Of a DNA stretch of 23,408 nucleotides, positions 4,342 to 22,436 are shown piece by piece (position 1 is the first letter of the stretch; the number at the start of each line of letters is the position of its first letter). The notes under the pieces are model-generated. The model was not told the origin of the DNA and did no database searches. It saw only the letters and a program-made list of their open reading frames with translations. Location of the stretch: positions 1 through 23,408 of IMG/VR virus record IMGVR_UViG_3300012936_000176, one strand, 5' to 3'. This DNA comes from a virus. Position numbers and translations under genes: made by a program.

Positions 4342-5472
4342 TTACAAATTAGGACGCCATCTGTGCCTTGGCACTAGTTTGATTTTATCTCTGGTAGCAA
4401 CATATCCTTCGCCGCCGCTTTGACCTTCTGTGCTTGCTGTTACATCAGCACCAGCACCATCTAATTGGTCAATGATGTTGTTCTTTACATTTTGTATTTG
4501 CACAACAAGATCCATTATAGCATCAAAACCCTTGCTGTCCATTGCCATGAGTTTTGCTTGTTGTCCTTTGCTAACTTTACTAGTTTTTAGCCAGTTGTTG
4601 AATCCACTGCGCAATTGGTCTAGTCTACCTTGTTTGACCATTTGGTTTACATATGTGTACAGTATGCCTGCTTTGTTGCTCAATCCTTTTTCTGGAGCAA
4701 GCCAAGCGTCAATAGCACTGGCATTTGCTCTTGCATTGGTTACAATTTTTTCAACTGCACTTGTGTCTACTTTAGGTGTGTGCGTAACATATGTTTGTCC
4801 TAGCACAACAACGTCATTGCTGTTGATGCTGTCTGTATCTTTTATTGGTGTGCCTGCTTTATCTCCAAATGCATCATGATATGTGTGAACCACAACACCA
4901 ACACTACTGTTAGCCATGCGTTTACCCAAATAACTGTTGGGGTCAACTGTATACGTAACTTTGTTTGGTGTAAACTGTAGCCCTTCATTTGAACGCTGAA
5001 TAGGCTTGCGAGGTGTGTACAATAAATCTCCATACACATAGCCTCTCATATCAGCAGGAGTGTTTCTCTCTAACACCTCAAACACACCTGCCATGTCGCT
5101 AGCAAAATCTTTACGCCAATCTTCACCTTTACCGGTGTTCATAATAAAATCTGCTAGCGCACCACTGCTGGTTGATTTGTTCTTTCCCCAACCATTCTTA
5201 CCTGTCATCACAAAAGTACCGTCTGGTTCACGACCCCAAAATATTGTAGGGTTGCCATCCCATTTGATACTAACGTCTCCTGTGTCTTGACCTAGTCTTG
5301 TTAGGATAGTTGCGGCTTTGAGTGCGCCTGCACTACCATCTACAAACACTAAATCTTCTAGATGCTGATACTCTCTGCCAACATTAGCCGCCTCTGTGAG
5401 TTTTTCACAAGTACAGGGTTCGCAGTTACACTTGCCACATACCCATTCTGCTAAAAATTGACGAGCTCTCAT
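4342..5472 (-). CDS. RNA-ligase-like covalent nucleotidyltransferase with N-terminal Cys cluster
   Basis: A 376-residue protein starting at the ATG at 5472, coupled (TAATG) to the nucleotidyltransferase gene upstream. Longer readings need a TTG. Residues 12-22 hold five cysteines (CGKCNCEPCTC), a probable metal site. Motifs of the ATP-dependent ligase/capping superfamily follow: KWDG (70-73; motif I, Lys70 the expected AMP acceptor), YGDLLY (147-152; like motif III), EGYVA (355-359; motif IV) and KIK (363-365; motif V). EGYVA and KIK resemble the T4 Rnl1 motifs as I remember them. The gap between motifs III and IV is unusually long, and IV-V unusually short. I believe relatives in T4-like cyanophages are filed as DUF6267, from memory. 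Ligase activity is inferred, not established. Confidence 0.75.
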   Translation of the reverse strand: MRARQFLAEWVCGKCNCEPCTCEKLTEAANVGREYQHLEDLVFVDGSAGALKAATILTRLGQDTGDVSIKWDGNPTIFWGREPDGTFVMTGKNGWGKNKSTSSGALADFIMNTGKGEDWRKDFASDMAGVFEVLERNTPADMRGYVYGDLLYTPRKPIQRSNEGLQFTPNKVTYTVDPNSYLGKRMANSSVGVVVHTYHDAFGDKAGTPIKDTDSINSNDVVVLGQTYVTHTPKVDTSAVEKIVTNARANASAIDAWLAPEKGLSNKAGILYTYVNQMVKQGRLDQLRSGFNNWLKTSKVSKGQQAKLMAMDSKGFDAIMDLVVQIQNVKNNIIDQLDGAGADVTASTEGQSGGEGYVATRDKIKLVPRHRWRPNL

Positions 5473-6245
5473 TAGTCTAGTTCTTTCCAATTAGGATCGC
5501 TACGAAGATCTGCAAGCATTGCATCACCTGCTTCTTTACCCAATGCCGCCATAATGGCTTCAACACTGCCTATATCTTTTCCTGAGGCATTAGGGCCTAA
5601 CAAACTGCGAGCTACTTCGTCTATATCTTGTGTGATAAACTTATCCTTTTTGCCGGCTTGGTCTCTGCTGAACAATCCTTGATAGGGTGAGAACAACATG
5701 TTCTTTTGTTTTGCTAACCAAGCTAGTGCTATCATCTTGTTCACACCTTTGAACTTACTACCTTGCGGTATGCTGTGTGTGTGAAACTTGCTAGCACGTT
5801 CGGCATTGGGGACGACCATAATATCAACCTGATGAGCATGGTCGTCCATTGGGACTTTTACATGTACACTTACTCCACTCTGACCTGTCTCAAGTCCTGC
5901 CAAATCAAATAATTGTCTTAATTTTTTACGGATAACTTTTGGGTCTGTTTGATCAAAGTGCTGAGCTAGTTGATCCTGATCAACAATCATATCCAAGTCA
6001 CCACTTACTTTACCCGGAGTAGGTGTTGCACCGCTTCCAATTGGTATCGCTTGTGCATTGGCTTTTGCTAACACACCGTTGATAGATTTCATTATTCCTG
6101 GGATCATCTTGTGGTCAAAACTAATGGTATCAGGGAAAATGTTTCCACCTTCCTTGAACAAACTACGACCTCTTATTCTTTTTATACGGCTACCACGTCG
6201 TTTTCTACGCTTATGTGTCCCGCCTAGTATATCTGCTATTTTCAA
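5472..6245 (-). CDS. Pol-beta-superfamily nucleotidyltransferase
   Basis: A 257-residue protein. The start is a TTG at 6245 with AGAGGA about 9 nt upstream; no ATG occurs before residue 47, and the reading continues KIADIL. Residues 11-28 are extremely basic. The nucleotidyltransferase signature is clear: GSG at 70-72, GDLD at 82-85 (metal-binding Asp83 and Asp85) and VDIMVV with the third Asp at 141. Such enzymes transfer nucleotides to RNA, protein or small molecules. The substrate here cannot be read from sequence. The gene overlaps the upstream small gene by 35 nt and is coupled to the ligase-like gene downstream, so the two probably act in one pathway, possibly RNA end repair. Confidence 0.85.
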   Translation of the reverse strand: MKIADILGGTHKRRKRRGSRIKRIRGRSLFKEGGNIFPDTISFDHKMIPGIMKSINGVLAKANAQAIPIGSGATPTPGKVSGDLDMIVDQDQLAQHFDQTDPKVIRKKLRQLFDLAGLETGQSGVSVHVKVPMDDHAHQVDIMVVPNAERASKFHTHSIPQGSKFKGVNKMIALAWLAKQKNMLFSPYQGLFSRDQAGKKDKFITQDIDEVARSLLGPNASGKDIGSVEAIMAALGKEAGDAMLADLRSDPNWKELD

Positions 6246-6710: not shown

Positions 6711-7133
6711 TCAGCATACTTCATATTCAAAGTTTTGACAATCATGATGCTTTCCAATAAACTTAGCACCATTATTGATATGAAAATTACGTGCCATGTC
6801 TGTTAGTGGGCTGAGTGTAACAAAACGTTTTACCCATGGTCTCTGACTTTTGATTCTTTCCGCTACTCCGTTTACAATTTCTCTACCTGCTCCCTTTTGA
6901 TAACTCCACACAGTATAGAATACTGCCGTGTTCATTCCTACCCATTTCATATCTCTTTCACTTTGTGGTACTTCGTCCATGTATGCTACACAGATACACG
7001 CCGCAATTTCTCCATCACGCTCCAAAACATAAACTTCTCTACCGCTACGTGTGCGCCATTCTTTTTTGATGTGTGGTCTAACTGGGTCGTTTTCAATGTG
7101 TACAAGTTCTTCATTTGTTGCTAACCTAATCAC
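6711..7133 (-). CDS. GNAT-family acetyltransferase
   Basis: A 140-residue protein matching GNAT N-acetyltransferase layout: N-terminal strand/helix, a central strand pair (REVYVLERDGEIAACICVAY), the acetyl-CoA-binding region near VFYTVWSYQKGAGREIV (Q-x-x-G-x-G/A type) and a final part, MARNFHINNGAKF, resembling motif B. It starts with GTG at 7133, whose G is shared with the TAG of the helicase gene (TAGTG). Being last in the replication operon says little about its target. Substrate unknown. Confidence 0.75.
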   Translation of the reverse strand: MIRLATNEELVHIENDPVRPHIKKEWRTRSGREVYVLERDGEIAACICVAYMDEVPQSERDMKWVGMNTAVFYTVWSYQKGAGREIVNGVAERIKSQRPWVKRFVTLSPLTDMARNFHINNGAKFIGKHHDCQNFEYEVC

Positions 7134-8527
7134 TACTCGCTCTTTCTCAACAGACTTTTAAGTCGATCTGTTGCATCTACTTGTGGATCCGCATCCATAT
7201 TATTTTCAGCAACGTTCTCACCTGCGGGTGCTACACTGCTTTTTGTTTTTAGTTTTTGATAGATGCTGGTTACCCCGCCATCATCTTGTTGTTCATCCTC
7301 GTCCAAATCTTCAATTTTCAAACTGTCCATGTTGAACTTGAGATCCAGTTTACTGCCAACACCACTGCTACTACGTGTTTTCATAAACTGTATTTGTACC
7401 CTGCCACGTTCACGCATAGCTCTACTGCTGAAGATACCAATCAAGTTATCTGCTGTATTGATCTTACTAATACCGCCTGCAATATGGCTGTGGTCAAATT
7501 CTATTTCATCAACTGCACTTCTGTTCAACTGCGAAGCAGTAACAAACAGTATGCCCAGCTCAGTTGCTAGGTTACGCAATTCTTCACTTACAAATTTGTC
7601 TTTGATAAATTGATCACTTGGATTTACTTTTACTGTTACTGGCATCATCAAGTCCAAGTAATCTACCAACAGTGCATCAACATGCAAGTTGTGTTGTATC
7701 TGATATTCACGCAAATATGCTTTGACGTCATTGACTGTGCTACCATTTTTCATTTGCACAACCTGTAGACGTCCTGCTTTCTTACTTGCCATCTTTACAC
7801 GTAGTTCAACATCACTGCTGTTTTTCATTACGTCTTTTGTACCCATGCCTGTTAGCATGGCATCCAATCTCATACAACACAGTTCTTCACTAAGTTCCAA
7901 ACTGATGTACACAACGTTCTTGCCTTGCAGTGCCCAGTTCAGTGCCATGTTCTGCATGAACAAACTTTTACCACTACCACTGCCACCTGCAAAAATGTTT
8001 AGTTCACCTGGATTGAATCCTCCATACAACACTCTGTCAAATGTCTCCCAGCCTGTGCTGTTTTGACCTCTGTTGTCTTTGATGCTTTGTATACGTCCTG
8101 CGGGATCATCCCAATAGTTTGTACCAAAGTCTTTGGCAAGTCCAATCTCAGTTGCTTCTTTGATAATGCCTTCAACTGTGCCATACTCTTTGCGTTCAAG
8201 TTTGTCAGCACTTGCAAGTATTGCCGCCTCCAGTGCTTTGTGTCTACAGAACTGTTCAAAGTTATCCATAAACCAGTTTTTGTGTTCTGTGCTTAGTCTG
8301 TCACTTACATCTTGTACTTCAACGCCATTGACTGCACGTACTTGATCCAGCATGGGAACATCTTGATATTCTTCTGCATGCTTTTGTATAAAATCTACTG
8401 TGTCTCTGTATTGTCTATCAAAGTAACTGCTTTTCAGAATAGCATTACAACGCACAAACAAGTCCTTGTCTGCCAACAAGAACTCCAAGTACAGTTTTTG
8501 TAAATCTGCGCTGTAGTCTTCGCTCAT
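7133..8527 (-). CDS. 41: Replicative DNA helicase (T4 gp41 / DnaB type)
   Basis: A 464-residue hexameric helicase of the RecA-fold DnaB family, which unwinds the fork 5'-3' and works with the primase. The N-terminal helical domain spans about 1-150. Walker A GGSGSGKS is at 181-188 and Walker B LLVDYLDL at 286-293. A later segment, FVTASQLNRSAV, matches helicase motif H3. The acidic, low-complexity C-terminal tail follows about residue 400. Length agrees with T4 gp41. It lies downstream of the primase and a small protein in one operon, joined by ATGA to the gene upstream. Confidence 0.95.
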   Translation of the reverse strand: MSEDYSADLQKLYLEFLLADKDLFVRCNAILKSSYFDRQYRDTVDFIQKHAEEYQDVPMLDQVRAVNGVEVQDVSDRLSTEHKNWFMDNFEQFCRHKALEAAILASADKLERKEYGTVEGIIKEATEIGLAKDFGTNYWDDPAGRIQSIKDNRGQNSTGWETFDRVLYGGFNPGELNIFAGGSGSGKSLFMQNMALNWALQGKNVVYISLELSEELCCMRLDAMLTGMGTKDVMKNSSDVELRVKMASKKAGRLQVVQMKNGSTVNDVKAYLREYQIQHNLHVDALLVDYLDLMMPVTVKVNPSDQFIKDKFVSEELRNLATELGILFVTASQLNRSAVDEIEFDHSHIAGGISKINTADNLIGIFSSRAMRERGRVQIQFMKTRSSSGVGSKLDLKFNMDSLKIEDLDEDEQQDDGGVTSIYQKLKTKSSVAPAGENVAENNMDADPQVDATDRLKSLLRKSE

Positions 8528-8734: not shown

Positions 8735-9757
8735 CTATTTACACCGTGACTTGGAAAGGATCTTGATCTTGGTGCTCGATGTCTCAACATTCTCCAATAT
8801 ACTCCTCACTGTAAACAATCTACCATAGTGTTCAACTGCTTCGCCCACATCTTTTATGTTGTCGTCCCATTCAGGAAACGCAACACTCCAGCCACGTTTG
8901 ATTGCTGTGTTTATTGTATCTCTGCCTGCAACATCAAAGTCAGGACACAGTATAATGTCTTTGCCCAAGTCTTCGATTATACTGCACTGTGTTGCGCTTG
9001 GCGTATTACCAGCCAGTGCAACTCCGCCAGTGAGCAGTGCATCAAACTGTCCTTCTGTTACAATAACTTTGTCGTGTGTTTTTTGTGCATCCAAGTTGAA
9101 TACAAAATGACTTGGACTTTGCAAATAGTACTTGGGCATTGCTTCTGGTCTGTGTTCTGGCACCCAACGTGCAGTGTAGCCCACTGTTTCGCCTTTGTAC
9201 ACAAATGGCAGTATTACTCTGTTGGCAAAGTGCATGTGTGGACTCCAATGCCAGTTTTCGTGAAAGTCTAGTCCACGTTTCATTAGATATGTACAAGCCA
9301 GTGCTAGTTTGTCCAGTTCTTTTTTGTCCAGTTGATCTATTGGATAGTTGCCAATTGGATGACTGCGAGGTGGCAACTCCATGCTTTGCCATTTGATAAC
9401 TGTCTTTTTAGTTTCTTCTTCTGGCAAGTAGTGTTTGCTGATATCTCTAGCATCTTGTTCTTTGAGCAACTCCAAGTTTACACGTTGGATATCGCTTTCA
9501 TCAGCACCCATTACTTTGAGTAATTTGCTCAGTCTGCCACCAATGCGTCTATCATCGCTCCAGCCAGTAGCAAAGCCACAATTGAAACAATTGTAACGAA
9601 ACTTGCCTTCTTCAAACAAGAATCCACCTCTGCCTTTTGTGTCTGGTCTGCTCTCTCCATTTTGTGTACACATTGGACAATTACCATGTGTCCAACCACT
9701 AGGAGTTTGCTTCCAGCCATAAGGCATGTGCTTGCGAATAAAATCCAATACTATCAT
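8735..9757 (-). CDS. 61: DNA primase (T4 gp61 / DnaG type)
   Basis: A 340-residue primase that makes RNA primers on the lagging strand with the gp41 helicase. The N-terminal zinc site uses Cys27, Cys30, Cys57 and Cys60 (CPMC and CFNC). A TOPRIM domain follows, with the conserved glutamate in VTEGQFDA (Glu235) and the DxD pair in CPDFDVAG (Asp273, Asp275). Length matches gp61-type primases. It is the first gene of the leftward replication operon. Its ATG sits 7 nt downstream of a strong -10 box, at the predicted transcription start. Confidence 0.93.
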   Translation of the reverse strand: MIVLDFIRKHMPYGWKQTPSGWTHGNCPMCTQNGESRPDTKGRGGFLFEEGKFRYNCFNCGFATGWSDDRRIGGRLSKLLKVMGADESDIQRVNLELLKEQDARDISKHYLPEEETKKTVIKWQSMELPPRSHPIGNYPIDQLDKKELDKLALACTYLMKRGLDFHENWHWSPHMHFANRVILPFVYKGETVGYTARWVPEHRPEAMPKYYLQSPSHFVFNLDAQKTHDKVIVTEGQFDALLTGGVALAGNTPSATQCSIIEDLGKDIILCPDFDVAGRDTINTAIKRGWSVAFPEWDDNIKDVGEAVEHYGRLFTVRSILENVETSSTKIKILSKSRCK

Positions 9758-10586: not shown

Positions 10587-10967
10587 ATGAATACAATAGC
10601 TAAGAAATATCAAAAATTGTTAGATGATTTTCCTTTTTTGACTCTCGTAAGTTATGGCGGCAACGAATATGTTGGCATTGTACAAAATGTTGACAACAGT
10701 TTGGCTAGCATGTATAACTTCGACAGTATCAAAACAACAGAACAAAAACAAAAATTCTTAGACTTGGGAGAAGAATGGTGGTGGGGTACTAATCGTATGA
10801 TACCTATCAACATTATTTTTAGAACTGCATTTGACGAATTCAAACACTGTTTGATTACCATGAGTGTAAAAGACTTCAACGTGGTACACGGGCCAGTTAT
10901 TAGCCTCAATAATCTAAATCAAAAACGTGTCAAACGCAGAAACATTCAGCTGGTGCGTAGAGTCTGA
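10587..10967 (+). CDS. Conserved hypothetical protein, plus strand
   Basis: A 126-residue protein and the only confident rightward gene in the window. A beta-type N-terminal part (LVSYGGNEYVGIVQN) is followed by a Trp-rich segment (GEEWWWGTNR) and a basic C-terminus (NQKRVKRRNIQLVRRV). I recognise the pattern as a widely conserved unknown of marine T4-like phages. It diverges from the structural-type gene with only 14 nt to the upstream ATG of that frame. Its 3' end overlaps the oppositely oriented oxygenase gene by 22 nt. No good ribosome site or rightward promoter is visible. Confidence 0.85.
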   Translation: MNTIAKKYQKLLDDFPFLTLVSYGGNEYVGIVQNVDNSLASMYNFDSIKTTEQKQKFLDLGEEWWWGTNRMIPINIIFRTAFDEFKHCLITMSVKDFNVVHGPVISLNNLNQKRVKRRNIQLVRRV

Positions 10968-11704
10968 TTCTTTTGAGGATCAATAATTCGCAAACGTCTT
11001 GCAGTAGTTTTTTCTGCGGCATGTAACAGCAACCCACGTCTAATTGAGTCGCTATGATTTGGCATACTACTGTGCATGACTCGTGGATGCCAGCAGACAA
11101 AACTGCCGGCTGGTGCTAGGTGTTGCTTGTAGTTGTCACTGAAAAATATATCAAAATGACTTTGATCAGCATACATGTTTTGATAATAGTCATAGATATA
11201 CTTGTGTGTACCAGGAACATATCCTGTAGCACCATTGTCTGGTGTAAAGTCACACAACATTACCATAAACTGCAATCCCAACAATCCTTCAGTGTATTTG
11301 AATTCTTTGAATCTATAGGGTGTATCAATGTGTGGACGAACAAAGTTCATACCTGGGTACAAACAAATAAAATCACACATGTACCATTCCCAATTGTTTT
11401 CACCAAAGGCGGCATCTGCACACTCGCCTAGTTTGGGTTTGATAATGTTATCAATATAATGATTGCCTCTTGGCTCATCTGTCCAATAGTAAGCCCAATC
11501 AATGTCTTTGATGTTCTCACCTTTTTCTAATTTTTCTTCTAGTTGTTGCCAACCCCACCATTTCAATGCTTTGGTGTGACCTCGTTCCGGATTGAACTCT
11601 GAGGCCCATTGGTTGATTTCTTCAATTGAGTCTTTGTCAAATGCATCTTGATGTACTGTAAATCCGACATCATTTATTTCTTGTACAAATCTATCTTTAT
11701 CCAT
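10946..11704 (-). CDS. 2-oxoglutarate/Fe(II) dioxygenase, phytanoyl-CoA hydroxylase type
   Basis: A 252-residue oxygenase of the PhyH family. The iron triad is visible: His125-x-Asp127 (RPHID) and the distal His211 (WHPRVMHSS), with Arg222 in the following segment positioned to bind 2-oxoglutarate. Substrates in the family range from lipids to small metabolites and nucleobases. The phage substrate cannot be told. A ribosome site (AGGA) precedes the ATG, 1 nt after the stop of the DnaE-like gene. Marine phages often carry members of this family. The last seven codons overlap the plus-strand gene. Confidence 0.85.
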   Translation of the reverse strand: MDKDRFVQEINDVGFTVHQDAFDKDSIEEINQWASEFNPERGHTKALKWWGWQQLEEKLEKGENIKDIDWAYYWTDEPRGNHYIDNIIKPKLGECADAAFGENNWEWYMCDFICLYPGMNFVRPHIDTPYRFKEFKYTEGLLGLQFMVMLCDFTPDNGATGYVPGTHKYIYDYYQNMYADQSHFDIFFSDNYKQHLAPAGSFVCWHPRVMHSSMPNHSDSIRRGLLLHAAEKTTARRLRIIDPQKNQTLRTS

Positions 11705-11705
11705 A

Positions 11706-12275
11706 TTACTGTCCTAATTGCTCACACAATAAATTCATGTGTACTACTACAACCATTGCATAGCTCACTGCGTGTGCTTTTTTGAAGTAGTATGCTTTAT
11801 TATCGTTTACGGGTTTTTTCCAAACCTCTTTCATTATCGTTGGCCACCCTTTGTCTTGTAGGTGACGTTTTGCTGGTCTGATCACTGCCAGTGTTGCCGC
11901 TAATTGTTCTACCGAGGACGGTTTCAATTGCTTCAATAGACTGTCGTGCCCGCTTAGATGAAAAAGCTGATCTACGAAGTCTTTGTGCTCCAGAAGTTCC
12001 CATAGTGGTTCCCTTTCCATTAGTTGTGTTAAATGTTTGTCATCTACAACATCTTTATAGATGCTGAGATTCAGCAGATCCAACTTGAAAAAGCCCATGT
12101 TGTCTGCTTCGCTGTGTTCAACTGTACACACACTGGTGAATGGATTACTAGGTACTTTGTGAAAGTAGACACCTGTATTATGTTTTCTATTCTTTAATCT
12201 GGCTGGTACATGTTTGAATAACTCTAGTGCTTGCTGTCTATCAGCAAAGTCAATGTCAATATCAGGTAGTCCCAT
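11706..12275 (-). CDS. Miniature DnaE-like (Pol III alpha) polymerase core protein
   Basis: A 189-residue protein aligning with separate blocks of bacterial DnaE. PDIDIDF (4-10) matches PDFDVDF with two catalytic Asp (7, 9). HNTGVYFHKVP (32-42) matches the STHAAGVVI block. MGFFKLDLLNL (60-70) matches the GLVKFDFLGL block with the third catalytic Asp (66). The stretch from about 100 to 134 (LFHLSGHDSLLKQLKP, then LAVIRP) matches VFQLESRGM..LIKRLQP..ALFRP. FKKAHAVSYA (164-173) matches FNKSHSAAYAL. A bacterial DnaE has more than 1,000 residues. Here the PHP domain, the palm stretch between the first two blocks, and the beta-clamp and OB parts are missing. AGGAG precedes the ATG. It overlaps the zinc-finger gene by 14 nt. 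Activity is unknown. Confidence 0.8.
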   Translation of the reverse strand: MGLPDIDIDFADRQQALELFKHVPARLKNRKHNTGVYFHKVPSNPFTSVCTVEHSEADNMGFFKLDLLNLSIYKDVVDDKHLTQLMEREPLWELLEHKDFVDQLFHLSGHDSLLKQLKPSSVEQLAATLAVIRPAKRHLQDKGWPTIMKEVWKKPVNDNKAYYFKKAHAVSYAMVVVVHMNLLCEQLGQ

Positions 12276-12969
12276 CTATCATCTCCTGTACAAATTGAGC
12301 ATCATGCGGATTGAGTTTTGTTTTTTTACCCCAATGATCTGCATCGATACTATTAGCTATTCTGCCAAAACAATCTTCTGGCATGTTTCCTAGCGCATTT
12401 TGCGCTCGCTTACTGCTGAGTATAATCCATGGACTTATCTTTCCCATTTCAACCCAATCAGCAATAAGATATCCACTGGCACGTTCCCAAAATTCTGTGA
12501 AGTATTCTGTAGTACTTGCATGTTCTACAAAACGTTCTAATGCACGTTCTACACTTTCACGTTTACAATGAGCCTGCACAAACAACAAATACATTTTGTC
12601 TGTGGGCCAATCTTTTAGTTTGGCTTTGTTTTTGATCAACCAACGTGTAAATTGTTCTTGGTCAATTACTCGTGTGTTGATACAATAGTTACCATATTTT
12701 ACAAAGGCTGTGTAGTATTGACTGTCCACAAAGTCCTTGTACTCTTTTGGTTTGCTTTGCATTTCAATTCTATAAAACAAATCATAACTTGTAAAGCCTA
12801 CCAAGACATCTTGATTATCTTTTGCTTGCCAACGTCTTTTCTTTTCACAACTGTGTGCCATGAGTGTGCTTTCACGTTGAAAGCTCTTTTTGCAGTATTC
12901 ACATGTGAATGTGCCTTTTTTCAATGATACTTTTCCTACTGCGGTTACCAACTGTTCTGCTGTGGTCAT
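12262..12969 (-). CDS. Zinc-finger protein of unknown function
   Basis: A 235-residue protein with an N-terminal zinc finger: FTCEYCKKSFQRESTLMAHSC gives Cys23, Cys26, His39 and Cys41 in a C2H2/C2HC spacing. The rest is helical and basic/aromatic with no recognised motif. The ATG overlaps the upstream stop (ATGA), and the 3' end overlaps the DnaE-like gene by 14 nt, so tight co-expression is expected. The zinc finger could give DNA contact to the small DnaE-like partner, which is inference from adjacency. Confidence 0.78.
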   Translation of the reverse strand: MTTAEQLVTAVGKVSLKKGTFTCEYCKKSFQRESTLMAHSCEKKRRWQAKDNQDVLVGFTSYDLFYRIEMQSKPKEYKDFVDSQYYTAFVKYGNYCINTRVIDQEQFTRWLIKNKAKLKDWPTDKMYLLFVQAHCKRESVERALERFVEHASTTEYFTEFWERASGYLIADWVEMGKISPWIILSSKRAQNALGNMPEDCFGRIANSIDADHWGKKTKLNPHDAQFVQEMIDGTT

Positions 12970-13645: not shown

Positions 13646-14142
13646 AAATCCTCTGTGCTGAGTACATCAGGTATCTTGTTTACTTCTTTTACAAAGTATA
13701 CGCATTTTGGATTGTCTTTGTCTTCCAATGGTACTGTTAGTATATGTCCAAACTTTAGTTTTGGAAAGTACCATTTGACTTCTTGATAGATGTTTACAAT
13801 TTCTATTTCATCAAAACTTGGAATAAAACCTGTGATTGGATTGAACACAAATGCTTTGAAGCCTCTGTCGTTCAAACTTGTTACTGGCAGTACTTCTGGA
13901 TCTCCCACTGTTGGATCACACACAATAATGCTCCAATCCAATGGTACTTTTACAAACCCATCTCCAATTTTTAGCACAGCCGCAGGACTATTGAAACTTT
14001 CTAAAAACACCAATGGTACAAAAATGTAATCTGCATTTTTGGTATCGCTGTAATCCAGTACACAATATCTAATATCATCTACTTCTTCTGGTACAAAGTC
14101 CAAGTCGTAACATTCATTCTCTACTGTCAATATTTTTGTCAT
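13639..14142 (-). CDS. Hypothetical beta-rich protein next to uvsW
   Basis: A 167-residue acidic protein, mostly strand-like with many Val, Ile, Phe and Pro residues, and no catalytic motif seen. It is coupled to the UvsW gene by an ATGA overlap and to the membrane protein gene by 7 nt, so it belongs to the uvsW operon. Function not recognised. Confidence 0.78.
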   Translation of the reverse strand: MTKILTVENECYDLDFVPEEVDDIRYCVLDYSDTKNADYIFVPLVFLESFNSPAAVLKIGDGFVKVPLDWSIIVCDPTVGDPEVLPVTSLNDRGFKAFVFNPITGFIPSFDEIEIVNIYQEVKWYFPKLKFGHILTVPLEDKDNPKCVYFVKEVNKIPDVLSTEDLW

Positions 14143-15590
14143 TTATAATCCACTTTCTCTATATGAAAGGGGTACTTGGCTTCTCGATAAAATTTCTTTC
14201 GCTCAGTCAAATGCCTCTTACTAAATTTTGCACTACTCGTGATATCCCATATCTGCACATGATCCTTGTCCTGTGCTTTACGAATACCTCTACCAATACT
14301 CTGAATAACTCTTACAAAACTTTTTCCTGGCTCAACTAGCACCAAGTTGAATATTCTGGGAATGTTGATACCAACAGCCGCCACTCCATAAGTTGCTACA
14401 ATAATCTTATTGTCAGCTTCACTTACTTCGTCATATTCATCTTTTCGTGTTTTGCTTTTCATTGATCCGCTGATAAACACTGCATCTTGCAAACGTTCTA
14501 TCAAGCCCTCGCCTGCACTGATACGATCTACCAGCACCAATGTGTTGCCACTTTTAGCCATTTGCTCGATTAGTCCGCTCATGTAATCCAGTCTATTTTT
14601 ATCTGTGGTCAAGTACGTAAGTTCACTTTGATAGTTTCCATAGCTAACTGTGTCTTGTAGTTGTAGTACGTTTACTTCACAGTTGGCTAGCACACCCATG
14701 TCTTGCAGTTCGTGTGCGCTCAAACTATTAGTTACTTCTCCCAAGCTCACTTCCAAGCTCAAGCGTTCATGATCCGCCTTGGGTACCGTGCCCGTCAACC
14801 CCCAACGAATTGGAATGTTGCTGAATGCTCCAGTAAGCAGTTTTTTTAGGACGTCTGCTTTGGCTTGGTGAACTTCGTCCACCATGACACACACGACACC
14901 CTCAGCGAATTGGTGCAACCCTTCGTCCGCTAGTCCATCACGGAACCTCTTTTCCAGAACGTTCAAACTCTGCCAAGTACATATGGTATGAGTTCTCCCC
15001 AATTCTTTTCGATCTCCGAAGTACACACCTACATCGAGTCCTAAGTTGATATAGTCAGCTTCTGTTTGAGTGACCAAATCTTTGTTAGGCACAATAACAA
15101 TGCTACGCCCATAGTCTTCACACATGTAACTCAGTGCCGCAGTAATCAATGTCTTACCTGCACCAGTTGCAATTTCCTGTAAACACTGTGGCGTTTGCAA
15201 AAACTTGTTTATAACTTCCACTTGATAATCACGTAATACGATTGGCTCACCTTCAGCTGGATGTCGCTTGGGCCAAACTCTATCACTGAACAGTTCTTCG
15301 GTTACCAGGTTCCATTTGAAATCATGTGGCTGTCTGTGATCGTCAATTTCAATACTGTAATTTTCTTCATCTAATATGGGCAGTATGGTGGGCAAGCAAT
15401 TTATAAATGTTGAACCACCCATGGTAAAGTAACCCACACAGCCATCCCATCTACCAAGTTTGTATGCTGGTACATGATATGCATGTGGTAAAAAGAACTT
15501 TAGTTTCTTTTCTAACTTGCGACGAGTAGTCAAGGCAAGTCCTTCAAACTTGCAGTTGACCTCGTCTTTGAGGATAAGTTTTGTATTCAT
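14139..15590 (-). CDS. uvsW: UvsW-type RNA-DNA/recombination helicase
   Basis: A 483-residue SF2 helicase. In T4, UvsW unwinds R-loops and branched DNA and turns off origin initiation. An N-terminal domain precedes the core. Motifs: Q-like LRDYQ (119-123), ATGAGKT (141-147, motif I), DEVH (238-241, motif II), TGT (266-268, motif III) and QSIGRGIRK (430-438, motif VI). Length agrees with T4 UvsW (about 500). It has a consensus sigma-70 promoter whose predicted start is the A of its ATG. Here, unlike the late regulation of T4 uvsW, the promoter is of early type. Confidence 0.93.
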   Translation of the reverse strand: MNTKLILKDEVNCKFEGLALTTRRKLEKKLKFFLPHAYHVPAYKLGRWDGCVGYFTMGGSTFINCLPTILPILDEENYSIEIDDHRQPHDFKWNLVTEELFSDRVWPKRHPAEGEPIVLRDYQVEVINKFLQTPQCLQEIATGAGKTLITAALSYMCEDYGRSIVIVPNKDLVTQTEADYINLGLDVGVYFGDRKELGRTHTICTWQSLNVLEKRFRDGLADEGLHQFAEGVVCVMVDEVHQAKADVLKKLLTGAFSNIPIRWGLTGTVPKADHERLSLEVSLGEVTNSLSAHELQDMGVLANCEVNVLQLQDTVSYGNYQSELTYLTTDKNRLDYMSGLIEQMAKSGNTLVLVDRISAGEGLIERLQDAVFISGSMKSKTRKDEYDEVSEADNKIIVATYGVAAVGINIPRIFNLVLVEPGKSFVRVIQSIGRGIRKAQDKDHVQIWDITSSAKFSKRHLTERKKFYREAKYPFHIEKVDYK

Positions 15591-18204: not shown

Positions 18205-18279
18205 TGGCACCGGTGGGAGGAATCGAACCCCCGCTTTCAGTTTTGGAGACTGCTGTGCTACCATTATCACTACACCGAT
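18205..18279 (-). tRNA. tRNA-Trp (CCA)
   Basis: Cloverleaf seen on the minus strand: acceptor ATCGGTG with CACCGGT, T-arm with TTCGATT loop, anticodon loop CTCCAAA (anticodon CCA), discriminator G and an encoded CCA end. The top base pair of the anticodon stem is mismatched. Confidence 0.9.
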
Positions 18280-18284
18280 ACATG

Positions 18285-18374
18285 TGGCGGACGGACAGGG
18301 ATTCGAACCCTGGGAGGAGTTGCCCCCTCAACACCTTAGCAGGGTGCCGCTTTCGTCCACTCAGCCACCCGTCC
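18285..18374 (-). tRNA. tRNA-Ser (GCT)
   Basis: Long-variable-arm tRNA: acceptor GGACGGG with TCCGTCC, anticodon loop CTGCTAA (anticodon GCT, AGY codons), variable stem GAGGGGGCAACTCCTC, T loop TTCGAAT, encoded CCA. It lies 5 nt upstream of tRNA-Trp. Confidence 0.92.
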
Positions 18375-18386
18375 TAATTAATAATT

Positions 18387-18414
18387 ATAATAAACTATAC
18401 AGAAAATAAGTCAA
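18387..18414 (-). promoter_or_regulatory. Sigma-70-type promoter for the Ser-Trp tRNA pair
   Basis: Minus strand: TTGACT (18409-18414), 16-nt spacer, TATTAT (18387-18392), 12 nt ahead of the tRNA-Ser 5' end. It overlaps the 3' end of the upstream gene. Confidence 0.65.
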
Positions 18415-18631
18415 CCTGTTTTGTGTATTTTCTCACAGTTTCTTTGGTCATTACTCCGTTGAGCCAATTTTGTGCGGCATCAACTACGTAACTGCGACTT
18501 TTGTTGGGATATTCTATTCTACCAACAACTTTTTCGTCTTCAAAAAAACTGCACATTAGATATTCATCATCTACAAAACTAATCACAGCCAGTTTGTTAT
18601 CCCGTTCAAAACGATTGTAATAATCAGTCAT
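18395..18631 (-). CDS. Small conserved phage protein
   Basis: A 78-residue protein, with strands first (LAVISFVDDEYLMCSFFED) and then a helical C-terminus (SYVVDAAQNWLNGVMTKETV). The layout is familiar from unknown small proteins of T4-like marine phages. It overlaps the upstream paralogue gene by 8 nt, and its 3' end holds the tRNA promoter. Confidence 0.75.
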   Translation of the reverse strand: MTDYYNRFERDNKLAVISFVDDEYLMCSFFEDEKVVGRIEYPNKSRSYVVDAAQNWLNGVMTKETVRKYTKQVDLFSV

Positions 18632-19376
18632 CTATCCACTCCATGCTTACAATGTAATTGTATTGCTCTATTGTTTTATTCAACTCTGGTTTTGTTGCAT
18701 CAAGTTCACCTATCTTGATATGCTTGTCAAACCAACAGTTTTGTGATTGAATGTCGAACCCTCGACTTTCAAGTTCAGTTTGGTTAGCTTGTAACCATCT
18801 TGTTTCATCTTCATTGCGAACGTTTCTTGATTGTGTGTTCAATACCATGTCAATATTTAGAAAAGGACTCACATACAATTTGTCTCTTGGTACAATTTTA
18901 TCAATACTTGTGGCATCAGGATTGCGATATGCTTGGAAAATATGTGTGCTTTCGTCATTCAATCTTAGATTTTGATCAACGTCTTTGGTTTCCAAATACA
19001 ACTGTCCAAAGTCTCTGCCCCAAGTGTTGTCAAAGTCTGCTTCCACATATTCTTGTAGTTCAATATCAGGATCCAACAATCCAATTGTATCATTTTTGAT
19101 TAGATAATTGTGTAAATTAGGAATCAATTTGAATGGATGTTTGTTGCATCTAATAAAATTCAAGTATGGTCCTTGTTGTAAATTCTTAATTGTTTGCAAA
19201 TATGCACTCACACAAGGTTTGTCCAACATGGTCCATGTTATAGTGGCTTTGGGTTCACTGTTGGCATACAAATTATATTCCCAACTGCGGTGCCCATCTT
19301 CTTTATTGATGTGCAGTTCCATGCCAGTCTGTTGCTGATCATCTATTTCGTCGCTAAATCCAATTTGTAGTTTCAT
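18624..19376 (-). CDS. Hypothetical protein, paralogue of the upstream gene
   Basis: A 250-residue protein starting at ATG 19376, which overlaps the upstream stop (ATGA) and gives the same N-terminus, MKL-x-(I/F)G, as its neighbour. Both proteins share the order: MKL start, W-(E/N)-Y-N-L near residue 35, a PNL/PNF region, a KLY(V/M)(S/P) strand in the middle, and a C-terminal segment (GFDIQ..., K-I-x-I-G-E...). No known family is recognised. Confidence 0.78.
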   Translation of the reverse strand: MKLQIGFSDEIDDQQQTGMELHINKEDGHRSWEYNLYANSEPKATITWTMLDKPCVSAYLQTIKNLQQGPYLNFIRCNKHPFKLIPNLHNYLIKNDTIGLLDPDIELQEYVEADFDNTWGRDFGQLYLETKDVDQNLRLNDESTHIFQAYRNPDATSIDKIVPRDKLYVSPFLNIDMVLNTQSRNVRNEDETRWLQANQTELESRGFDIQSQNCWFDKHIKIGELDATKPELNKTIEQYNYIVSMEWIDD

Positions 19377-20155
19377 TCTATGCTCCAAGTTGCCCTTGTA
19401 ATGTATCTATTATTGCCAAGTTTGTTTACCACTTGTTTGTAATTTTTACATTCGCCTATTAGGATCTTTCTTTGAACTTCATAGTACAATCTTTCTGATG
19501 TAAATCCTAGGTCCAAAAACTGTTGTTCGTATCTAGTTGTGGGTAGATCTTCTAACTGTGTTTGCTTGTTGTACTTATCAGGCGAAATAGGAAACCTCAA
19601 ATCCAAATAAAATTCACCACGAACTAAATCAGGATAATAGTGAGGCACATTCTGTTCGTCCCACTTGCTCAAATACCATTGATTCAGTGCTACACCGTCT
19701 GGTTCCAGTCTATAGTCTCGAGTGTATATAGGAAACAATGGCATGTACAGTTTGCCAGGTTCTGTGGTGTAGCGCACATTGTCTAAATCCTGTTCAGTTG
19801 TGTCAGGCAACTCAATTGTTGGCACATAGTCATCCTGCTGAATGGTGTGCAAGATGGGAATGTAATCAAGTCTCAACAGTGTATCATTGAAATTTGGTAA
19901 CCATACATTGGGTTGGTGTGACAGTCCACACATTTTTAGATGAGGTTTTTGTATAAGTTTATGAATTATTGGAAGTATATTTTTTATACAAGGCAAATCA
20001 TACAGTTCGTATTCAATGCTGATTTTTTCTCTGTCAAACTCTTGACGCTTGAGATTGTAGTTCCAATATTCTTTTTCCGTGACATCTTCAATTAGCTTGA
20101 GATCACCATGTAAATCTTCTTGTAATTGATCTGTTAGTCCGAAAGTTAATTTCAT
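19373..20155 (-). CDS. Hypothetical protein, first of a tandem paralogue pair
   Basis: A 260-residue protein. The start is set at the ATG at 20155. An in-frame ATG at 20191 lies inside tRNA-Leu and is not credible. Only six bases (CTAATC) separate the tRNA CCA from this ATG, so processing of the tRNA would leave an almost leaderless mRNA. The sequence is related to the following gene (see its shared blocks, such as KLYMPLF / KLYVSPF and LIGE / KIGE). Function unknown. Confidence 0.78.
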   Translation of the reverse strand: MKLTFGLTDQLQEDLHGDLKLIEDVTEKEYWNYNLKRQEFDREKISIEYELYDLPCIKNILPIIHKLIQKPHLKMCGLSHQPNVWLPNFNDTLLRLDYIPILHTIQQDDYVPTIELPDTTEQDLDNVRYTTEPGKLYMPLFPIYTRDYRLEPDGVALNQWYLSKWDEQNVPHYYPDLVRGEFYLDLRFPISPDKYNKQTQLEDLPTTRYEQQFLDLGFTSERLYYEVQRKILIGECKNYKQVVNKLGNNRYITRATWSIE

Positions 20156-20161
20156 GATTAG

Positions 20162-20246
20162 TGGTGCCCATGGAGGGATTTGAACCCCCACTCTATAAAG
20201 AACAGGTACCTAAAACCTGCGTGTCTACCAATTTCACCACATGGGC
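20162..20246 (-). tRNA. tRNA-Leu (TAG)
   Basis: Acceptor GCCCATG with CATGGGC, anticodon stem CAGGT/ACCTG with loop TTTAGGT (anticodon TAG, CUA codons), long variable arm, T loop TTCAAAT, discriminator A and encoded CCA. Confidence 0.92.
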
Positions 20247-20253
20247 TATTTGA

Positions 20254-20478
20254 TTATGGCTTTTCAGCCGAATAAGTAAAAAATTTATCTAGCATTTCCA
20301 GGCGATCGTAAGCCGCCGCCATTTTGTCTAGCTCTGCAATAACTGCTTCAGTTACGTCACTGTGTTCCCCAATACCGGCTGGCATAGTCTTGTAGACTTC
20401 GATGTTGGCTTTGTGTACAGCCATTTCACCTTCTGCTTGCTTTCTTGCGGCTTCAATAATTGCGTCTCCTGCTTTCAT
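20254..20478 (-). CDS. Small helical protein
   Basis: A 74-residue protein rich in Ala, Glu and Lys, nearly all helical by composition (AGDAIIEAARKQAEGEMAVH). AGGAG precedes the ATG. It ends 7 nt before tRNA-Leu, downstream of the membrane protein gene in the same leftward unit. Function unknown. Confidence 0.7.
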   Translation of the reverse strand: MKAGDAIIEAARKQAEGEMAVHKANIEVYKTMPAGIGEHSDVTEAVIAELDKMAAAYDRLEMLDKFFTYSAEKP

Positions 20479-20499
20479 ACTATTCTCCTTTATTTTTAC

Positions 20500-20997
20500 T
20501 TATTCGTGTTCGCCACCTGGATCATTGGCATCCAGTTGTACTTTTTTTCCGTTGATCCACATGTTTTGTCTTGTGCGACTCAATGTGTGATAACCGTTTT
20601 TTAGATCGAACATTTCTGGTTTACGTTTGGCTGTTTCAAACGTACCCACTGTTACCGCAATGGCTCCCAGCAATGCCACGTGAATGATAGCACTGATACC
20701 AAATACGGTCCAGCTACCAACAATAAATGCAAATGTAATGCACCACATCCATGCAAGTACTTGCATGAGTAGGTGTCTAACTTGTAGGTCCGGAATGTTA
20801 CTCAGTGGATTCTTATCATAATCCATTACTGCATTCCAATTGTCATATACCCATTCTCTCATATCTTTTACCTTCTCGAATGTTACGTGTTTAGGATAGT
20901 GAGCATCTGCACTGTCTCTGAAATCAATAGCATCATATATGTCGTGAAACTTTTGCGACACTTTATAATCTTTGAAAAAGGCAGTTACTCTATACAT
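20500..20997 (-). CDS. Two-TM membrane protein
   Basis: A 165-residue protein. I choose the ATG at 20997 with GGGGAG upstream; an ATG at 21027 would start inside tRNA-Thr. The N-terminal 70 residues are soluble and charged. Hydrophobic segments lie at about 76-97 and 100-119 and form a hairpin, and a hydrophilic tail follows. No family recognised. It is the first protein gene after tRNA-Thr and shares its promoter. Confidence 0.75.
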   Translation of the reverse strand: MYRVTAFFKDYKVSQKFHDIYDAIDFRDSADAHYPKHVTFEKVKDMREWVYDNWNAVMDYDKNPLSNIPDLQVRHLLMQVLAWMWCITFAFIVGSWTVFGISAIIHVALLGAIAVTVGTFETAKRKPEMFDLKNGYHTLSRTRQNMWINGKKVQLDANDPGGEHE

Positions 20998-21013
20998 AGT
21001 TGCTCCCCAATAG

Positions 21014-21089
<76 letters not shown>

Positions 21090-21095
21090 TTTACT

Positions 21096-21125
21096 ATAAT
21101 ATAATATTCCTGTTTGTTTTGTCAA
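21096..21125 (-). promoter_or_regulatory. Sigma-70-type promoter for tRNA-Thr and following genes
   Basis: Minus strand: TTGACA (21120-21125), then TATTAT at 18 nt or TATATT at 16 nt. It ends about 7 nt before the tRNA-Thr 5' end and overlaps the region just past the TIM-barrel-type gene. Confidence 0.65.
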
Positions 21126-21130
21126 GATAT

Positions 21131-22258
21131 TTAGTCCCATTTTTTATACCATGTGCTAATTAAATCTTCTGCAGGCTTGCCTCTGACGTTAGCACTTTTA
21201 TTGTACAGACTGTCATTTTTATCTTGTGTTGTAAAAAGGTCATCTCTTAGATGATATCCCCAACTGTTGAGTCCTTGTACAAAATCAAATCGATTCACTG
21301 CATCAATTGCAATTTGGTATGCTTGTTTTTGTAGTTGTAAATCAATTTCAGTTGTGGGTGCTATACTGCCACAGGGTACACAAGGTTCAATATAACGAGT
21401 GTGTGCCACTGATTGTACTACACTAGGCGTGGTCACCATAAGCACAACACTTTTATCATAACGAGCAAATCGTTTGAGGTTTCTACTGAAGTCAGGTTCA
21501 ACAGGATCTTGCACTATAAATCCTATGTAATCAAATTGGTCAAATAACTTTTTACGAGCTTGCTCACCTTGATAATGACTGGTAGCATCAAATGCACTGT
21601 GCATTTCACTGGTGTCAAGTTCAGCATAATAACCTAGTTTACCCTTGTATACTTGTCTAACTTCATGTGCAAGTTTTTGCCAATAGTCAACTGCAACACG
21701 AATTTCATATACATTATTGTATCCAATGCTCAGTCTTTCCACACCAAGTGCTTGTGCCATACGAGCTCTTTTGACAATCAATTCACCCATGCTGGCAAAA
21801 TAACTGTCCCAAAATACTGTATCATCAATTGACCTTTCACTGAGTGTTTTGTTCCAATCACGTGTGCTGAACAATTGAATAATTATTTCTGTTTGTAATC
21901 CTTTGCTTTTTGCATCTTGTACCAGTACAGGATAATCACTGGCAGTGGGACTCATTGCCCAGTCGTGAGGATCAAATGCAATGTCAACTGTATCTTCTGC
22001 ACGTTTGATCCACAGTGTATCAATCAGTGTTACTGTGTTTGCATCAACAACTTCACTGAGTCTTGTGAATGTATTCTGATATGTTCCCTCTTTCATCAAT
22101 CTAGTATGATATCCGCCAACATCATGAATAGTAATACTTTGCATGATATCAGCATGTGCCGGAGCGCATGCCGTGATTGAAAATAATGCCGCAAGTATTG
22201 GAGCGGGTAACCGGAATCGAACCGATGTCTTTGGCTTGGAAGGCGATTGTAATACCAT
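21131..22258 (-). CDS. Exported TIM-barrel-type glycoside-hydrolase-like protein
   Basis: 375 residues if read from the ATG at 22258, which lies inside tRNA-Gly. That start gives a convincing export signal: basic N-region (KPKTSVRFR), hydrophobic core (PILAALFSITA), then either a lipobox (ITAC, Cys31) or an APAHA signal-peptidase site at residue 36. No other ATG precedes the mature part, which begins DIMQSITIHD. The mature protein alternates strands and helices like a (beta/alpha)8 barrel, and its C-terminus (GKPAEDLISTWYKK) resembles GH113-like/GH5-like glycosidases as I recall them. Catalytic acids cannot be assigned. It could act on the host envelope or exopolysaccharide. This would be unusual in an early tRNA-rich region. 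Confidence 0.7.
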   Translation of the reverse strand: MVLQSPSKPKTSVRFRLPAPILAALFSITACAPAHADIMQSITIHDVGGYHTRLMKEGTYQNTFTRLSEVVDANTVTLIDTLWIKRAEDTVDIAFDPHDWAMSPTASDYPVLVQDAKSKGLQTEIIIQLFSTRDWNKTLSERSIDDTVFWDSYFASMGELIVKRARMAQALGVERLSIGYNNVYEIRVAVDYWQKLAHEVRQVYKGKLGYYAELDTSEMHSAFDATSHYQGEQARKKLFDQFDYIGFIVQDPVEPDFSRNLKRFARYDKSVVLMVTTPSVVQSVAHTRYIEPCVPCGSIAPTTEIDLQLQKQAYQIAIDAVNRFDFVQGLNSWGYHLRDDLFTTQDKNDSLYNKSANVRGKPAEDLISTWYKKWD

Positions 22259-22272
22259 TATACTATACCCGC
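22199..22272 (-). tRNA. tRNA-Gly (TCC), weak anticodon stem
   Basis: Acceptor GCGGGTA with TACCCGC, anticodon loop CTTCCAA (anticodon TCC), T-arm ATCGG-TTCGATT-CCGGT, discriminator T and encoded CCA. The anticodon stem has only three of five pairs (mismatches at 27-43 and 29-41). Sixty bases of the gene double as the first 20 codons of the exported protein. Confidence 0.82.
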
Positions 22273-22275
22273 ATT

Positions 22276-22352
22276 TGGAGTGGGTGACTGGATTCGAACC
22301 AGCATAACACGGATTTGCAATCCGGCCCGTAACCGATTCCGGGCACACCCAC
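22276..22352 (-). tRNA. tRNA-Cys (GCA)
   Basis: Acceptor GTGGGTG with CACCCAC, D-arm CCCGGAATCGGTTACGGG, anticodon loop TTGCAAA (anticodon GCA), T loop TTCGAAT, discriminator T and encoded CCA. Three bases upstream of tRNA-Gly. Confidence 0.88.
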
Positions 22353-22358
22353 AAAAAT

Positions 22359-22436
22359 TGGCCCACTCTACAGGACTCGAACCTGTGACCTACGGTTTAG
22401 AAGACCGTTGCTCTAATCCAACTGAGCTAAGAGTGG
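22359..22436 (-). tRNA. tRNA-Arg (TCT)
   Basis: Acceptor CCACTCT with AGAGTGG, D-arm GCTCAGTTGGATTAGAGC, anticodon stem ACGGT/ACCGT with loop CTTCTAA (anticodon TCT, AGA codons), T loop TTCGAGT, discriminator G and encoded CCA. Confidence 0.92.

Follow-up and report, generated by a model that had tools for sequence, protein, structure and literature searches.

A viral DnaE-like gene as the probable C-terminal part of a minimal DNA polymerase III alpha subunit encoded by two genes

The split Pol III alpha of jumbo phages and the locus studied here

A split minimal DNA polymerase III alpha was predicted by Iyer et al. 2021 (Viruses 13:63, PMC7824862) in "group 2.2" jumbo phages, where an N-terminal NTP-binding protein and a C-terminal Mg/template-binding protein are encoded by distant genes in genomes that also carry a family B polymerase (PolB). 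The formation of an active enzyme from both halves is a prediction of that study, which also put the split enzyme forward as a model for ancestral Pol III (PMC7824862). Two phage proteins had been noted earlier, CBB_328 as a truncated alpha subunit (PMC5259590) and Atu_ph07 gp316 as an alpha subunit (PMC6102473), and the PHROGs entries for the N-terminal half (PHROG_11127, piece A below) and the C-terminal half (PHROG_11778, piece B) are both already labelled "DNA polymerase". We found no experimental study of a split phage Pol III in the open-licence literature.

The DNA analysed here (the window) is a viral stretch of 23,408 nucleotides, positions 1 to 23,408 of IMG/VR record IMGVR_UViG_3300012936_000176. 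One of its ORFs is a further member of the split Pol III alpha kind and corresponds to piece B: as in the arrangement described by Iyer et al. 2021, its sequence opens at PDIDIDF, and both the metal-binding aspartates and the template-side motifs are retained. It is 34-51% identical to the copies of the isolates and has nothing structurally distinctive. The first-pass annotation had placed a DnaE-like protein at the right coordinates and was silent on the strand; the gene lies on the minus strand, the plus strand of the same interval being riddled with stops. Every motif block that it had listed is present and aligns to E. coli DnaE, in order, at residues 400-406, 510-514, 552-559, ~600-641 and 756-765; the positions of the catalytic aspartates were assigned by alignment to DnaE. 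All features are collected in Table 1.

Table 1. Features of the piece B locus in the window and, in the last row, unsplit PHP-less DnaE genes of other contigs
Feature	Position	Strand	Remarks
Piece B, C-terminal half of split minimal Pol III alpha (P0001, PHROG_11778)	11706..12275	minus	ORF, 189 aa; ATG start, read 12275-11706
Shine-Dalgarno AGGAG	12283..12287	minus	7 nt 5' of the piece B ATG; from sequence
PDIDIDF, piece B residues 4-10	12246..12266	minus	metal-binding Asp = E. coli D401, D403 (and D405)
HNTGVYFH, piece B residues 32-39	12159..12182	minus	= E. coli KHAGG (H511, G514); hhalign
FFKLDLLNL, piece B residues 62-70	12066..12092	minus	K64 = K553; D66 = third catalytic Asp D555; hhalign
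Finger remnant, piece B residues 104-134 (LFHLSGHDSLLKQLKP...AVIRP)	11874..11966	minus	= E. coli ~606-640; LFHLSGHDSLLKQLKP at residues 104-119, AVIRP at 130-134; R133-P134 = E. coli R639-P640
FKKAHAVSYA, piece B residues 164-173	11757..11786	minus	= E. coli 756-765 (K758, H760, Y764)
Upstream neighbour, PHROG_11058	12262..12969	minus	weak N-terminal C2H2 zinc finger; overlaps piece B start by 14 nt
Second upstream neighbour, PHROG_11758	12966..13439	minus	same order in RaK2
UvsW-like helicase	14139..15590	minus	upstream of piece B; phrog_16 E 3e-73
gp61-like DNA primase	8735..9757	minus	downstream of piece B; phrog_47 E 1e-25
gp41-like DnaB replicative helicase	7133..8527	minus	downstream, replication cluster; phrog_19 E 4e-72; PF03796
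PhyH-type dioxygenase	10946-11704		directly after piece B, starting two bases past its stop; PF05721 E 5e-23
Seven tRNA genes (Trp, Ser, Leu, Thr, Gly, Cys, Arg)	18205-22436		interspersed among short ORFs
Unsplit PHP-less DnaE (other contigs)	L055:16149-17408; L127:142-1782 (contig of L058); L120:13672-14868		several kb downstream of piece B, near gp41 helicase

As can be seen, the window carries a T4-like replication cluster in which uvsW is followed by two PHROGs families of no assigned function, piece B, and the primase and gp41 helicase genes. The placement of piece B between uvsW and the primase/helicase genes recurs in most isolates, and the gene order around it is similar in RaK2, GAP32, 121Q, PA5oct, SCTP-2 and Vibrio 2.275; a PHROG_11058 member also lies just upstream of piece B in RaK2. 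The second upstream neighbour was considered by eye as a clamp-loader small subunit, a candidate that searches of PDB, Pfam and NCBIfam did not support. At the place of the PhyH-type dioxygenase, a small ORF on the opposite strand occurs in Phosso, RaK2, GAP32 and others. Another ORF of the window (5472-6245) has a GSG...GDLDM pattern that looks nucleotidyltransferase-like by eye, with no PHROG or NCBIfam match.

Homology and conservation of piece B

Piece B is a homologue of bacterial Pol III alpha (DnaE, C family), and at the level of family profiles the relation is firm. It scored 12.6 bits against the DnaE profile, compared with a maximum of 4.5 among 2000 residue shuffles, and was aligned to DnaE by hhalign with an E-value of 6e-7. 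PHROG_11778 matches it over its length (E 5.7e-61), and every PDB match of the piece B family profile is a Pol III alpha (best E 4.5e-4). Single-sequence matches are weak and likewise all to Pol III alpha: Pfam PF17657 (fingers domain; sub-threshold, E 0.033), PDB 5LEW (E 0.073) and NCBIfam polc (E 0.0021). An AF2 model built on a 50-sequence alignment reached a pLDDT of 87.5, and its top 13 Foldseek matches were all Pol III alpha chains. The best Foldseek E-value was only 1.1e-3 and the query TM scores were 0.31-0.49; what is matched is half a palm, and such modest values are expected for half a palm with rearranged fingers. Profile, alignment, PDB and fold thus all uphold the C-family assignment of the first-pass annotation.

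Conservation was surveyed in 83 distinct piece B sequences, for which one of the two IMG/VR retrieval patterns contained DIDID and may have favoured conserved aspartates. D5, D7, D9, D66, K64, H32, G35, R133, P134, H168 and Y172 are invariant (83/83), and K166 is kept in all sequences but one (82/83). The phages retrieved by tblastn, which are free of the DIDID bias, agree. Retention of the catalytic aspartates, claimed from the single sequence, therefore extends to the family: the equivalents of D401, D403, D405 and D555 are present in all 83 homologues, and no homologue in this set lacks them.

Full-length homologues (at least 80% of the length) were found by tblastn in 63 phage records, nearly all of them jumbo phages with kinship to RaK2, 121Q, GAP32, PA5oct, Atu_ph07, Phosso, SCTP-2 and XacN1, with a few shorter assemblies, and identity to piece B is 34-51% among the matches listed. 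More than 430 homologues are present in IMG/VR. The dN/dS of piece B against its three nearest relatives is 0.07-0.10, which indicates purifying selection, and its length is uniform, 185-232 aa over 92 frames. The view of piece B as a stable reduced protein rather than a decaying one is confirmed by the dN/dS values and the number of IMG/VR homologues.

Several public annotations of these genes deserve comment. The RefSeq start of Atu_ph07 FDI40_gp074 (L002:12001-12570) is set ~25 codons too far downstream, which cuts off PDIDIDF, and the GAP32 homologue is annotated as a membrane protein. Phage-like contigs with piece B (L257, L258, L259-L267) have been binned into MAGs of both bacteria and archaea (Neomarinimicrobiota, Methylophilaceae, Natrialbaceae and others).

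The other half and the split point

In the genomes of RaK2, Phosso and Atu_ph07, Pfam DNA_pol3_alpha finds a second ORF, far from piece B. This piece A (172-177 aa in the three phages, ~175 aa across isolates) matches the DnaE segment just upstream of PDIDIDF, which holds the GRGS nucleotide-binding element; its G-x-GRGS is invariant (93/93). Piece A of Phosso ends in ...WGVGRGSSVASYVLFLIGIHRVNSITYELDFDEFLN. In RaK2, A and B correspond to gp373 and gp411. The alignment of piece A to E. coli DnaE extends up to residue 393 (FERFLN being residues 388-393), and the homology of piece B opens at residues 400-406, PDFDVDF. Since A ends at FERFLN and B begins at PDFDVDF, the break in the palm falls after GRGS and before the Asp motif, and this boundary is identical across 21 genomes. 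Between them, A and B make up the catalytic palm of the nucleotidyltransferase and a remnant of the fingers, and the PDB matches of both halves, by sequence and by fold, are C-family polymerases. There is no intein or intron at the split, neither half having spare junction sequence. We found no fused A-B among the IMG/VR loci, where the only clearly longer frames with both kinds of motif are unsplit PHP-less DnaE proteins.

These results change the picture drawn by the first-pass annotation, which took piece B for an odd stand-alone enzyme: the gene of piece A is its other half. The annotation had also reported that much of the palm is missing between the first two blocks. A gap does exist there, and the absent stretch (E. 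coli DnaE 407-509) is, by the domain borders of Lamers 2006, mostly thumb and not palm. The missing part of the palm lies upstream of PDIDIDF and is encoded by piece A.

Piece A is present in all ten B-carrying jumbo phage isolates examined, always as a separate, distant gene. The closest large relative of the window, the 335-kb contig PBPT01000016 (PBPT01000016.1, L258), whose B is 64% identical to that of the window, has A at 102,932, PolB at 128,430 and B at ~316,543; this phage-like contig was binned with a Neomarinimicrobiota MAG. Among IMG/VR contigs, A is present in 4/4 large ones that were chosen for B and hold the PolB region, and B in five of the six chosen for A (>270 kb). The exception, and the only uncoupled case seen, is the 359-kb contig IMGVR_UViG_3300035698_035310 (G021), which has A, PolB and a DnaQ-like exonuclease and in which B was not detected. 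Three contigs with B (G005, G007 and G008) are missing both A and PolB; since PolB is missing too, and A and PolB lie ~25 kb apart in this phage group, they are most simply fragments and not cases of A loss. Within the 23-kb window, a fragment of insufficient length to include A, a profile search of all 248 frames found no piece A (best E 0.22), and no PolB was found among the ORFs checked in this fragment.

No isolate and no large IMG/VR contig with A lacked the family B polymerase, which was expected for this phage group from the outset, and nearly all copies have the DTDS catalytic motif. Of the isolates, 8/10 encode a DnaQ-like exonuclease, against 2/8 of the large metagenomic contigs; as it occurs in only 10 of these 18 genomes, we rejected it as an obligate partner. 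Pairwise identities of A and B correlate in a mirror-tree comparison (r = 0.77, 210 pairs), a value that is not usable as evidence of binding since shared ancestry alone would produce it.

The predicted enzyme and its relation to known polymerases

The roles of individual DnaE residues and the domain borders used here follow published DnaE structures. Between them, the two proteins keep GRGS (in A) and the metal ligands with the equivalents of K553, H511/G514, R639-P640, K758 and H760 (in B). The PHP domain, the thumb (E. coli ~433-510), the OB and clamp-binding parts and nearly all of DnaE after ~775 are missing, as are R390 and the NPER segment at the cut and ~115 finger residues, including L-R709-R710-A-M-G-K-K. 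In DnaE, R709 and R710 contact the dNTP phosphates. With the thumb, these finger residues and R390 gone, DNA and dNTP would have to be bound in another mode.

We consider it probable that piece B is the C-terminal half of a minimal Pol III alpha which T4-related jumbo phages make as two proteins, and that A and B act as an accessory polymerase beside PolB. A distant gene outside the 23-kb fragment would supply piece A with its GRGS triphosphate-binding element. The two proteins would fold together non-covalently into a single C-family nucleotidyltransferase palm, to which A would contribute GRGS, and B D401/D403/D555, K553, H760 and the small finger remnant. Such an enzyme might serve second-strand, gap-filling or repair synthesis, with the family B enzyme as the main polymerase of the replisome and, in some phages, the DnaQ-like exonuclease possibly joining in. 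A non-covalent nucleotidyltransferase is the simplest account of the near-strict co-occurrence, the complementary halves of the active site and the invariant catalytic residues; the neighbouring replication genes point to a part in DNA synthesis, probably a specialised one next to PolB. Physical assembly, polymerase activity and biological role are here inferred.

With the thumb and the finger arginines lost, an untemplated transferase is also conceivable, as is, with lower probability, an idle scaffold. According to the first of these readings, A and B form an active nucleotidyltransferase other than a template-directed DNA polymerase, e.g., a transferase (terminal or gap-limited) or an enzyme that modifies RNA. 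Only a minimal nucleotidyltransferase core is left after the loss of the thumb and the R709/R710 segment, and seven tRNAs are encoded in the window, but the conserved position next to the primase, gp41 helicase and UvsW genes and the retained finger-derived R639-P640 and K758/H760 equivalents make this unlikely. A catalytically idle structural or regulatory subunit, such as a scaffold for PolB or the exonuclease, would fit the presence of an intact PolB that has a catalytic motif of its own and the lost dNTP-binding residues of the fingers; it is improbable, as all metal ligands, K553 and GRGS stay invariant even between divergent phages, which would be unexpected without catalysis. That piece B acts alone as a nuclease, decoy or regulator is very improbable: it is a self-contained ORF, and A occurs without B in the uncoupled 359-kb contig, but A accompanies B in 10/10 isolates and the nearest large relative, and B has no nuclease domain and is without the part of the active site that holds GRGS. 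Of the roles suggested in the first-pass annotation, nuclease and decoy gained no positive evidence, the PHP nuclease domain being absent and the active-site residues strictly conserved; terminal transferase and regulator keep a small probability. Decay of a captured full-length dnaE, to which the loss of about four fifths of a normal DnaE might point, is rejected as next to impossible given the low dN/dS, the uniform length, the more than 430 homologues and the one split point across 21 genomes.

It is possible, if rather doubtful, that a two-gene palm devoid of the thumb and the dNTP-binding arginines of the fingers represents a distinct second polymerase or transferase with its own role at the fork beside the family B enzyme. 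If active, it would be, to our knowledge, the smallest Pol III-type enzyme, and bacterial-type and archaeal/eukaryotic-type polymerases would be combined in one viral replisome.

The order of Asp401/403/555, K553, H511, R639-P640 and K758/H760 in E. coli DnaE (PDB 2HNH) and the Taq enzyme (3E0D) is that of piece B. Compared with bacterial DnaE, A and B together are without PHP, thumb, most of the fingers and the beta-binding, OB and tau-binding parts, and the palm is divided between two genes. In cyanobacteria, DnaE is also encoded by two genes, with a break further downstream and ligation of the two halves by a split intein; in contrast, the phage break is inside the palm and leaves no room for intein pieces. 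The unsplit PHP-less phage DnaE (~547 aa; matching phrog_405 and phrog_11165), found in short contigs of relatives with B (L127, L055, L120), shares the C-family palm and the absence of PHP but is a single chain, in which part of the thumb, the RRAFAKK motif (R709/R710) and a far larger portion of the fingers are retained. Near the gp41 helicase of the window, a gene of this type is absent. To the split Pol III alpha known before, the present analysis adds a survey of individual residues, the precise split point in 21 genomes, the absence of R709/R710, a wide metagenomic spread and three contigs in which piece B occurs together with the unsplit PHP-less DnaE.
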